Shown: positions 53,201 to 55,293 of the stretch, one piece after another | How the letters are laid out: each line of letters begins with the position of its first letter | Position numbering within the stretch: position 1 is the first letter of the stretch | Assembly: GCA_902774005.1 (NCBI GenBank) | Contig: CACYGK010000030.1 | Coordinates: forward strand, 1 to 55,293 | Reading direction: 5' to 3' | DNA: 55,293 nt | DNA from: an uncultured Bacteroidales bacterium | Lineage (GTDB): Bacteria; Bacteroidota; Bacteroidia; Bacteroidales; Bacteroidaceae | Position numbers and translations under genes: made by a program | The notes under the pieces: generated by a model | Told to the model about the DNA's origin: nothing | Databases searched by the model: none | The model's input: only the letters and a program-made list of their open reading frames with translations

Positions 53201-53580
53201 TTGTCATCTTTCATGTCCTGCACCATCTGTAACATTCCATCCTCTACCTCTTTCGTATAGTTTGAATTCTCTATATCCTGCTTTATCAACTGCATGCATT
53301 CTTCCTTAACTTCATCCTCTGCACCAATAAACAGTTGTCCATGCTGCTCGGCACGGGCAATATATTTGTCCACATCTATTCCGATGAGGACACGCACTTT
53401 ATTGATGTTATTAAGGAACGGACGTAAGGCAAAATAACCGGATGCACGAAGGAATCCCACTACGGCATCGAGATGCTTCACTTGAGGATTCTTGGTCAGG
53501 AATCCCTCAAATTGCTTCATTAGTGTGTTCCCGTCTCTGTTGGTAAAGAATAGAGAATTAGAAATAAGGTTGTCAGACAT
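50260..53580 (-). CDS. PLD-nuclease/SNF2-helicase fusion of a restriction-type system
   Basis: 1106 aa. The N-terminal phospholipase-D-like domain (about 1-215) has a single HKD-type site RIHAKIYI (near 138) and GSSNLSGNGLG. An SNF2-type motor follows, with Walker A VVGLGKTVIAT (near 290), LILVDEAHKFRS (near 370), LISATPMNN and a second RecA-like lobe (VLAEGVNLH, LMQRIGRVNRIGS near 795). The C-terminal 200 residues are helical. A nuclease tethered to a translocating ATPase plus the neighbouring methylase makes a self-contained restriction-modification or phage-defence pair. It resembles DISARM and BREX parts but lacks their other genes. Confidence 0.92.
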   Translation of the reverse strand: MSDNLISNSLFFTNRDGNTLMKQFEGFLTKNPQVKHLDAVVGFLRASGYFALRPFLNNINKVRVLIGIDVDKYIARAEQHGQLFIGAEDEVKEECMQLIKQDIENSNYTKEVEDGMLQMVQDMKDDKLELRAHPSRRIHAKIYILYPDNYDQYMLGAAITGSSNLSGNGLGISAEKQYEFNVMLTQYPEVKFAKDEFEILWNEAEGVPITSIDVETTMGSTYLKGDVTPYELYIKMLMEYFSDRVLAIDNTNPFAMPKGYMKFDYQTDAVIEGYQKLIRYDGFFLADVVGLGKTVIATMIAKKFLIENGWEHTKILVVFPPAVEHNWRATFKDFGIDQYARFISNGSLSKVLDEDNLEYWNADEYDLILVDEAHKFRSHTTQAFEQLQEICKMPRMETGYIPGYKKKVMLISATPMNNTPADLYNEILLFQDPRHCTIDGVPNLTSFFSPLIAEFKRLRREPNFNIRNFKQLAERVRDRVIKPLTVRRTRTDIESIPRYNKDVNGFPKVKRPIKKEYELNNHLANLFERAMQILDRELTYARYQAIAYLKPDAAPGLYDNAEVISRSLAGIRKNGLVKRLESSFYAFRKSLDAFRQANQNMLTMWENDKIFIAPDMDINLLYAQGYTDEEIEEKLNEKAETNPKNAVFNREHFKPEYIDMLRKDQQLLDDMWLEWECISDNDDSKFARFEELLNKELFDVKRNPEGKLVVFSESVDTVEYLQRRINRKDVLVISSQNRGQQFKTIRENFDANWKEKKNDYNIILTTDVLAEGVNLHRSNIIINYDTPWNSTRLMQRIGRVNRIGSTSGIIYNYVFYPSREGNEQINLNQIALSKIQTFHTTFGEDNQIYSTDEIIDRDLDKLFEEGIKQEKSDRNLELPFYEELRDLYLNNRREYKRIERLPLRSRTGRTPREVGDVTLSDDTLVFLKTNFRKLFYLVNDKETKELSVLDALTYYKAMPEEQQTERIPQHHEHVEKALKAFRNTRTQEIHEQEKNQQQRSNLGAQVAIASNLLNNVLGFIEDSETRVKVLQLKALAERGTITYIAKRLQRIQKDLQRTNGKVRMTIHDALPQIIDMANKYNAYYREVQKAEEENDAVIILSESFNK

Positions 53581-53598
53581 GGTTGATTGTTAGTTAAT

Positions 53599-53606
53599 TA
53601 TCTTTG
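53599..53606 (+). promoter_or_regulatory. -7 box (TATCTTTG), plus strand, inside the structured element edge
   Basis: Consensus TATCTTTG followed by CACC faces away from the PLD-helicase gene and into the inverted-repeat element. No gene on the plus strand follows. Confidence 0.6.
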
Positions 53607-53890
53607 CACCTAACTATCAATCACGCCAAGACGCAAAAAAAGGCGTGATGCACCTTATTGCGTATAGCTATGGGGCAGCGTAGGAAGGAAACCCCATCCA
53701 TCTAATAAGTATGCAACACACCTAAGTGTGTATGCATCGCTATAATTAGATGGTAGAGATGTCCTGTCCAGACACCTATCCAGATATTATTTCTGTGCGT
53801 TTTATTTCCAAACAGTTTCCTACGCTTTTGGCTATACGCGAAATAATAGCTGATGCTTTCATTAGTCCGGATTTCTCCCCGAACCGATGG
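53607..53890. other. nested inverted-repeat element upstream of the restriction-type operon
   Basis: About 280 bp without a credible gene but with a deep set of complementary arms. These are 53620-53627/53642-53649 (8 bp), 53658-53668/53831-53841 (11 bp), 53677-53686/53817-53826 (10 bp) and 53698-53706/53745-53753 (9 bp). Inside is a near-perfect hairpin 53711-53721/53726-53737 with loop CTAA. An alternative TGGGG/CCCCA stem (53671-53675/53692-53696) competes with the third pair. ATTATTTC (53786-53793) can pair with 53840-53847, crossing the second pair as a pseudoknot. It is either a structured RNA or the leader of the PLD-helicase transcript. Confidence 0.7.
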
Positions 53891-53898
53891 CAAAGATA
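53891..53898 (-). promoter_or_regulatory. -7 box (TATCTTTG), minus strand, for the PLD-helicase operon
   Basis: Consensus TATCTTTG followed by CCATC points toward the operon start at 53580, giving a leader of about 300 nt through the inverted-repeat element. Confidence 0.65.
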
Positions 53899-53906
53899 CA
53901 AACTAT

Positions 53907-53922
53907 ATTTCATTCATGAAAT
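53907..53922. promoter_or_regulatory. operator-like palindrome
   Basis: ATTTCAT-TC-ATGAAAT lies just upstream of the minus-strand -7 box, at the -33 region, and could bind a repressor or controller protein. Confidence 0.45.
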
Positions 53923-53954
53923 AGAATAACATAAAATCTTAGTTTTTTATATCA

Positions 53955-53990
53955 AACAAAAAAGTGCTCACATTGAAGTGCGCACTTTCT
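53955..53990 (-). terminator. intrinsic terminator after the KilA-N gene (repeat copy A)
   Basis: Stem AAAGTGC-t-CAC/GTG-c-GCACTTT with loop ATTGAA, and T-tract on the minus strand. Part of a 45-bp repeat (53956-54000) whose second copy is at 54818-54863. Confidence 0.85.
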
Positions 53991-54018: not shown

Positions 54019-54564
54019 TCATTTCAATAGATTTCTGCTACTATTATCTTCCAGCACTCGCATCTGCTGGATAGCTATCTGATTAAGTTTTATTAGACGT
54101 TCCCTTTGAGATATGCCCTCGTTGATAAGAACGGCATTGATGTTTTCCATGTTGGACAAACAGATGAGTTCGTTGATGGTGGCATAATCACGGATATTGC
54201 CTTTGAGTTCCGGATTGGCTTCGCGCCATTCACGAGCTGTCATGCCACCATAGCGTCCTTTCTTTACAATAATACCTATGGCATTGGTCTTTTCAACCCA
54301 CTCAGTTACACTCATTACGAAGTTGGGTAGTCCTGCTTGCATTCTAAAGTGGTCAAATTCGACCACTTTGAAACGAGGATTATGAATCATTTCCCATGTA
54401 CCAAGGAACTCAATAGTGTATCTAGTGCGTATCCAGTTCTTAATAATATCAGCAGCACGGCTTTCACTTTGCTTACCATTTGCCATGTCTGTCAAAGAAA
54501 TATAGTCCTTGTCATTAATCGACAAGACAGTAATTTCTGTGTTCTGAACATTTATCTTTGCCAT
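54019..54564 (-). CDS. KilA-N domain protein
   Basis: 181 aa. The KilA-N domain fills most of it: YISLTDMANGKQSESRAADIIKNWIRT, the W-rich FLGTWEMIHNP, and the VVEFDHF and SVTEWVEKTNAIGI segments. A helical C-terminus (YATINELICLSNMENINAVL) follows. KilA-N is a DNA-binding domain found in phages and large DNA viruses, and in Bacteroidales defence islands beside restriction genes. A regulatory or defence role is inferred from position. Promoter box at 54591-54598; a terminator follows 30 bp after the stop, so it is a single-gene unit. Confidence 0.88.
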   Translation of the reverse strand: MAKINVQNTEITVLSINDKDYISLTDMANGKQSESRAADIIKNWIRTRYTIEFLGTWEMIHNPRFKVVEFDHFRMQAGLPNFVMSVTEWVEKTNAIGIIVKKGRYGGMTAREWREANPELKGNIRDYATINELICLSNMENINAVLINEGISQRERLIKLNQIAIQQMRVLEDNSSRNLLK

Positions 54565-54661: not shown

Positions 54662-54757
54662 AGTATGTTCTTTCTCCACTTTGTTGCGAAAGCGCAAGCG
54701 ATGGAGGCGAGTATGTTCTTTCTCCACTTTGTTGCGAAAGCGCAAGCGATGGAGGCG
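54662..54757. repeat. perfect 48-bp tandem duplication
   Basis: Two identical 48-bp units (54662-54709 and 54710-54757), beginning agtatgttctttctcc and ending gcgatggaggcg. Each contains GCGAAAGCGC-like inner symmetry. No gene is apparent from 54599 to 54885 apart from this repeat and the terminator. Confidence 0.95.
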
Positions 54758-54814: not shown

Positions 54815-54852
54815 ATGACAAAAAAAGTGCTCACATTGAAGTGCGCACTTTC
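54815..54852 (-). terminator. intrinsic terminator after the kinase gene (repeat copy B)
   Basis: The same hairpin as at 53955-53990, AAAGTGC-t-CAC/GTG-c-GCACTTT, with a T-tract on the minus strand. It sits 34 bp after the stop of the edge gene. Confidence 0.85.
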
Positions 54853-54885: not shown

Positions 54886-55293
54886 TTATGTAACAGATCT
54901 TTTACCTGGATGCTTGATGCTGATTCTGTTTACTGAATCGATATTAAAGTTGACATTGTTCACGACAGCATCTATAAAGTGGAAGTTTCCCTCCATGTCA
55001 ACAATAACATTTGAAGTTTTAACGTCCGATATCTCATATTGTCCATTGAACCAAATATCATCCATATCAACTGTGTAGCCGTGAGATTCTAGAAATTCAT
55101 CTATTTCGGCATTGGTTGCATACCTGAGGGGTTCAATGAATGGCTGACGTAAGACTACACAAGGTTCGAGGCTGCTATTGAATGTAAAGCCCAGAATAGT
55201 ATAACCATCCTCTGGGAAAAGCATGTTATGGGAAATCAGACGATGCAAGAAGCCGTCAAGAGTGGTCGCCGAATCAGATAAGAGAGCAAAATT
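54886..55293 (-). CDS. polyvalent protein kinase-like protein, 3' part
   Basis: The frame runs from the right window edge to a stop at 54886; the 5' part is outside, so length is unknown (135 residues visible). The visible piece has ILGFTFNSSLEPCVVLRQPF, NAEIDEFLESHG and SNVIVDMEGNFHFIDAVVNN. This pattern of a kinase-like N-V-x-V-D-x-x-G-N-x-x-x-I-D with a preceding acceptor segment matches the putative polyvalent protein kinase domain of phage and conjugative-element proteins. It suggests that the region right of the KilA-N gene is mobile DNA. Confidence 0.65.
   Translation of the reverse strand, partial: NFALLSDSATTLDGFLHRLISHNMLFPEDGYTILGFTFNSSLEPCVVLRQPFIEPLRYATNAEIDEFLESHGYTVDMDDIWFNGQYEISDVKTSNVIVDMEGNFHFIDAVVNNVNFNIDSVNRISIKHPGKRSVT

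Follow-up and report, generated by a model that had tools for sequence, protein, structure and literature searches.

A pseudoknotted leader RNA family, probably an attenuator, before a PLD-helicase/methylase operon and other genes of Bacteroidales

Riboswitches and transcription attenuators combine a structured 5′ leader with competing stems and a terminator-like hairpin before the gene. Processive antitermination also uses leader RNAs, such as EAR upstream of eps operons, and structured RNAs also form part of defence systems, such as the type III toxin-antitoxin RNA, AbiF RNA and retrons. Gene control in restriction-modification (R-M) systems must balance methylation against cutting, and we know of no RNA input that is common to different R-M systems.

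Here we describe, by computational analysis, the leader of a helicase/methylase operon in the window, the whole stretch of 55,293 nucleotides of Bacteroidales DNA that was analysed. It resembles riboswitches and attenuators in its structured 5′ leader, its competing stems and its terminator-like hairpin before the gene, but it has no known ligand and no match in Rfam, and the one fold precedes functionally unrelated genes. As with EAR, a large structured and pseudoknotted RNA is predicted to act on the transcript that it starts; unlike EAR, the family lies immediately upstream of the opening gene in short operons of varied kinds and carries its own U-run. Although it lies beside defence genes like the type III toxin-antitoxin RNA, AbiF RNA and retrons, the family has no single protein partner and precedes unrelated R-M as well as non-defence genes. 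We regard it as a new leader-RNA family, and its unusual trait is that it is common to unrelated R-M systems.

The preliminary description of this DNA had proposed a comparison with Rfam. At the gathering cut-off of release 15, no family matched the element in the window, in 20 relatives or in 20 short-form loci, and when 12 loci were scanned permissively, matches below the cut-off stayed at chance level, the few that overlap the element being for example SNORD105, MIR7994 and ctRNA_p42d at E 0.46-2. A literature search that took in PMC8040213 and PMC2864571 found no description of this leader. Since the supplements of PMC8040213 hold thousands of candidates, the leader may be listed there without a name. 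PMC2864571 lists the epsC motif and, as candidate structured RNA motifs of Bacteroidetes, Bacteroidales-1 and GUCCY-hairpin; the family described here is likewise a candidate structured RNA from this phylum. According to the table in PMC2864571 Bacteroidales-1 is in Rfam, where the window element gave no match, while GUCCY-hairpin stands there without an Rfam number.

Strand, extent and promoter of the leader

The folded leader structure at the helicase/methylase operon is real. A structured element had been placed at 53599-53922; the structure was confirmed, but its extent is shifted, since it extends along the minus strand from about 53898 as far as the helicase ATG at 53580-53578. The leader consists of promoter box, core and a 3′ module that reaches to the start codon at 53580:

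53898-53891, minus strand: sense promoter box TATCTTTG, found in the sequence 38 nt before the core
53860-53653, minus strand: conserved RNA core of the long form, 208 nt, defined by covariance-model matches in relatives
53580-50260, minus strand: PLD/Snf2-type helicase, first gene of the operon (PADLOC C3a139, HKD and Snf2)
50251-47219, minus strand: Eco57I/N6 DNA methylase, type IIG-like (PADLOC REase_MTase_IIG)

Folding of both strands, as proposed earlier, gave minimum free energies below every shuffle for the plus strand (53607-53892, z -6.01, 0/200) and for the minus strand (53581-53888, z -5.62, 0/100). Open frames of 63 aa on the minus and 59 aa on the plus strand occur in this region. 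The Bacteroidetes -7 consensus is TAnnTTTG. Two inward-facing -7 boxes had been reported and both are present as TATCTTTG, the second on the plus strand at about 53599-53606, but the box at the helicase end is not shared: an antisense TAnnTTTG within the 75 nt past the core occurs in only 8 of 129 relatives, window included. In the 150 nt before the core, the consensus was found in sense orientation in 94 of 129 relatives, in antisense orientation in 18, and in 8.2% of mononucleotide shuffles. An RNA on the plus strand is ruled out because the sense promoter boxes outnumber the antisense ones, because the box at 53599 has a counterpart in so few relatives, and because G-U cells exceed A-C cells on the gene strand in 11 of the 14 helices tested, the bias being absent or reversed in helices C (0 vs about 7 cells), E and F. 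The operator-like palindrome noted earlier exists at 53906-53923, but an inverted repeat of this kind, with arms of at least 7 and a gap of 0-4, lies within 120 nt upstream of the core in only 14 of 127 sequences, window included.

Two size forms of the core occur, a long one of about 190-230 nt as in the window and a short one of about 137-155 nt. The distance from core end to start codon has a median of 68 nt in long and 87 nt in short leaders. Compensatory changes, location on the gene strand and a position just upstream of start codons are the marks of a cis-regulatory leader, and all were found. The earlier suggestion of a structured 5′ leader with alternative stems is supported by sense promoter boxes, a narrow position before the start, covariation and competing pairings.

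Core fold and covariation

The structure was derived from the window together with 11 relatives and was tested on alignment A6, which comprises 38 of the 42 window-like leaders (L216, L225, L235 and L241 were left out). All helices lie on the minus strand, pairing refers to these 38 leaders, and a doubly changed pair is one that differs on both sides:

53848-53840 with 53793-53785, minus strand: helix A, which crosses B and C and forms the first pseudoknot; 96.5% of cells paired
53839-53831 with 53668-53660, minus strand: helix B; paired in 99.1% of cells, with 5 of 9 pairs doubly changed
53826-53817 with 53686-53677, minus strand: helix C; paired in 91.2% of cells, with 8 of 10 pairs doubly changed
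53809-53805 with 53691-53687, minus strand: helix C2, extension of C; 73-85% paired
53696-53692 with 53675-53671, minus strand: helix M, which flanks the 3′ arm of C and forms the second pseudoknot; paired in 94.0% of cells, with 3 of 5 pairs doubly changed
53737-53726 with 53721-53711, minus strand: hairpin D; paired in about 82% of cells, with 6 of 11 pairs doubly changed

With A crossing both B and C, and M crossing C as well, the core contains two pseudoknots. The 9 pairs of helix A vary on one side only in 6 cases and on both sides in 1. The outer stem of D, helix J, is paired to 40-68% across its three parts, and helices J and K are less certain.

On A6 the structure paired 84.3% of cells compared to 77.8% in shuffles, with 236 doubly changed cells (97.8 in shuffles) and 47 pairs changed on both sides (33.4 in shuffles). 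In agreement with the covariation expected from the preliminary description, the score was 0.249 against 0.146 after shuffling, and none of 500 shuffles, which ignore relatedness, reached this value. A6 is not an independent set, because the window and the 11 source relatives are all among its members. Since in addition the shuffles ignore relatedness, the weight is carried by the effect size and by the slid control, in which shifting the structure by 1-3 columns lowered the score to 0.063-0.117. Most of the covariation signal comes from helices B, C and M.

The arm pairs listed in the preliminary description were found in the sequence, namely 53677-53686/53817-53826, 53660-53668/53831-53839, 53620-53627/53642-53649 and a hairpin around 53711-53737, as were the alternative pairing 53631-53639/53655-53663 and the crossing arms 53781-53793/53840-53852, the possible pseudoknot that corresponds to helix A. 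One of these pairs did not hold as a conserved helix: the hairpin 53620-53627/53642-53649 gained no covariation support and, together with the pairing of the 5′ arms of A and F (A-F), was no better paired than shuffles (126/500). The A-F pairing is formed in 99.6% of cells, but proves nothing because it is nearly invariant. Two conserved helices were absent from the earlier list, the crossing helix 53692-53696/53671-53675 and the start-codon hairpin 53611-53622/53585-53596.

The 3′ module and a proposed switch

Between core and start codon the minus strand carries the following elements:

53640-53656, minus strand: terminator-like hairpin T, found by scan, with the U-run 53641-53635 following
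53642-53652, minus strand: strand Y, lying within T and complementary to 53721-53711, the 3′ arm of D, with which it may form an antiterminator
53622-53611 with 53596-53585, minus strand: hairpin F, ending 4 nt upstream of the start codon

In the window, hairpin T is weak, with 6 pairs of which 3 are G-C, and it is variable among the 38 leaders, in which its helix is paired to 75%. A terminator-like hairpin follows the core in 76 of 129 relatives (63/90 long, 13/39 short), compared to 9 of 129 on the antisense strand and 15.3% of dinucleotide shuffles. Five consecutive T were present less than 45 nt or at most 45 nt past the core in 91 of 131 sequences versus 8.2% of shuffles. A terminator-like hairpin with U-run before the gene, as expected for an attenuator, is therefore found, more weakly in the short forms.

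The pairing of strand Y with the core of the same sequence is more stable than that with swapped partners in 95 of 128 sequences (p 3.4e-11; L277 and L278 were left out of this count as well as of the terminator and antisense-box/palindrome counts, and L274 of this count). Pairing of Y with the core also exceeds that of shuffled Y in 121 of 128 sequences, and in 105 of 128 the best partner of Y falls at 0.5-0.7 of the core, the position of D. Covariation between D and Y on A6 is modest, with a score of 0.211 versus 0.191 (6/500 shuffles). As Y takes part in T as well, and the 3′ arm of D in that hairpin, the pairings D-D3′ and D3′-Y would be mutually exclusive. The lower part of an extended T hairpin, which would compete with helix B, is paired to only 79% and was rejected. 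The D3′-Y stem could itself serve as a terminator, because it too ends at the U-run.

We propose that the helicase/methylase operon has this element as its 5′ leader RNA and that the leader probably functions as a cis-acting attenuator, representing a new pseudoknotted family of Bacteroidales; most likely, the leaders of this family act as expression switches on the genes downstream. In the model that we infer, with termination, switching and sensing by the leader, it would be transcribed from its own promoter on the gene strand, the core with its two sets of crossing helices being followed by T and the U-run and, in most R-M leaders, by F. With D closed, Y would form T and transcription would stop about 60 nt before the gene. 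If the core adopts its other state, the D 3′ arm may pair with Y, thereby blocking T and allowing the gene to be read. The signal behind this change could be a metabolite, a protein, or how transcription or translation is proceeding. A second control could act at the start codon through F, where this hairpin is present.

The weakness of T in the window would also suit a non-switching leader whose role is to protect or promote the expression of accessory genes, either by processive antitermination or by RNA stability, with the U-run hairpin being read through constitutively. The downstream genes are long, mobile-looking and very different in function, and for such a role they need not share a signal. 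However, the competing pairings D-D3′ and D3′-Y are kept and the terminator-like element is enriched, so that we consider a non-switching leader unlikely.

Hairpin F has 87.0% of its cells paired in the 38 leaders and 5 of 12 pairs changed on both sides. An action on translation only, through F at the start codon, would agree with its presence in 44 of 57 long R-M leaders and with its end a few nucleotides before the ATG, but F is absent from 13 of these 57 and from 16 of 26 other long leaders while the core persists, which makes this a very improbable explanation compared with the attenuator. That F is exclusive to R-M leaders was refuted by its presence in 10 of the 26 other long leaders.

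Distribution of the family and its downstream genes

Using blastn, matches were found in 14 of 393 genomes of the order, the window's own genome included. The six strong matches outside the window (L002-L007) precede EcoRI-family methylase genes and not PLD helicases, as judged by sequence comparison for all six and by Pfam for L002, L003, L004 and L006. Covariance model R1 (11 sequences, 205 positions) detected 37 places in 25 of the 393 genomes. Model R2, built from 40 sequences, detected 90 places in 57 of 151 genomes of the family, and in a phylum-wide sample it matched 4 of 345 genomes, of which one was the window's own and the other three were weak. One model search recovered 91 of 92 expected places and missed the copy L256 of genome G838, and the weakest matches (L158, L159, L161, L279-L283 and similar ones) may include false ones; L278 looks like a tRNA gene on visual inspection.

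Conservation upstream of homologous helicases was seen as expected from the preliminary description. Of the best 80 of 94 PLD-helicase loci, four contained the element by blastn (L045 partial) and 26 by R2 at E < 0.1; at least four of the 80 begin at the gene or near it. All 26 matches of R2 lie on the gene strand, 60-182 nt before the protein match, and two further matches up to E 1 are located elsewhere. A weak match (E 0.028) precedes the PLD helicase of Prevotella sp. P6B1 (L041). For the EcoRI_methylase and MmeI_Mtase families, 30 loci each were taken from the 151 family genomes, strongest matches first and not at random. In this set the RNA precedes 22 of 30 EcoRI-type methylase genes, with 17 strong matches, of which one is truncated at a contig end, and 5 weak ones of the short form at E 0.0005-0.009. 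The 30 MmeI loci, 24 of which have at least 270 nt before the first in-frame start, gave one weak match only (E 0.03, 87 bases), which overlaps the likely gene start. MmeI genes were therefore rejected as regular targets, although two of them from the order search (L140, L152) carry the RNA.

R-M-type genes lie downstream of 61 of 128 genome matches, window included, this class taking in PLD helicases, the HNH-helicase of L150, L213 with a restriction-type gene in second position and L270 with a gene cut by the contig end. By form, they follow 57 of 83 long leaders and 3 of 37 short ones, 8 matches being set aside (L246 with two, L248, L249, L265, L274, L277 and L278); 5 of 86 long leaders were dropped as near-duplicates. 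The EcoRI-type methylase was counted 43 times and is often followed by a GmrSD-like gene, which PADLOC calls a type II restriction enzyme in the one case tested (L127). Other kinds are D12 methylase with HNH and N6_N4 genes, Tsp45I with N6_N4 methylase, MmeI, N6_N4 methylase with a type II restriction enzyme, type III mod genes, N6_Mtase and HSDR_N. The remaining matches precede surface, secreted, other or no identified genes, including GDSL, acyltransferases, sulfatases, LRR, Big_2, dockerin, protein kinase, transglutaminase, AbiC-like and TonB receptor genes, and many leaders precede genes without a family or have no close gene. Since genes such as those for GDSL proteins, sulfatases and TonB receptors also occur downstream, the leader is not restricted to R-M systems.

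The preliminary description had offered as a second option a noncoding RNA belonging to the defence system. A long, structured RNA that adjoins defence genes could indeed be a working part of such a system, as guide, antitoxin or template. Instead of occurring with one protein family, however, the same RNA precedes many unrelated R-M types and non-defence genes, so that a component specific to this defence system is unlikely and we regard this option as highly improbable.

A common mobile repeat at unrelated sites had been named as an observation that would speak against a leader. Repeat-like behaviour with multiple copies was seen in only one of the genomes looked at, G838, which harbours five similar copies (two in L246, and L248, L249 and L256), two of them 1.4 kb apart and some without a gene directly downstream; the near-identical copies at unrelated sites that mark a mobile repeat were thus seen in part, and there only. 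For a miniature mobile repeat, or a DNA-level site that folds by chance, these copies are the argument. Against it stand the single copy in the window's genome, the position of copies elsewhere in line with genes at a narrow distance, and the covariation with G-U pairs, and this origin appears extremely improbable to us. A phage or plasmid origin was rejected on two viral pattern scans (0 and 2 stretches, no full match, the best at E 0.0051 over 39 bases) and on blastn, which gave no match to plasmids and three short matches to phages on the promoter side; exact patterns and blastn would both miss divergent copies.

We favour the attenuator, and going beyond it we put forward, as a possible but rather doubtful idea, that the family is an RNA sensor common to unrelated R-M systems. 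The fold would have been captured repeatedly by type II, type IIG, type III and PLD-helicase systems as well as by surface genes, its doubly pseudoknotted core sensing a signal linked to infection or physiology and antitermination switching the genes on, so that one RNA input would serve different defences. If the leader responds to a signal, this signal would regulate defence and partly surface genes across gut and rumen Bacteroidales. The fold may be an orphan riboswitch, whose ligand could be sought directly with the alignment and the structure.

Some minor observations concern the genes around family members. Large first genes are found behind hairpin-F leaders in L198, L211, L231 (~770 aa), L229 (829 aa) and L138 (772 aa); those of L198, L229 and L138 have no match in Pfam or PADLOC, and all five are possible restriction enzymes of unknown type. 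In genome G207, two DUF805 RNAs (RF03081; L119:1702-1767 and 2666-2734) lie downstream of a weak family match. In the window, a KilA-N domain protein (54019-54564, PADLOC PDC-S22) and the end of a polyvalent-protein kinase (54886-55293) are encoded upstream of the leader and suggest a mobile element. Between the KilA-N gene and the next gene lie two copies of a 48-bp unit at 100% identity (54662-54757). These two genes are each followed by a copy of a 25-nt hairpin sequence GTGC...GCAC (53964-53988 and 54827-54851), the two copies agreeing without mismatch at a chance expectation of 0.00 and being perhaps terminators of a mobile region.
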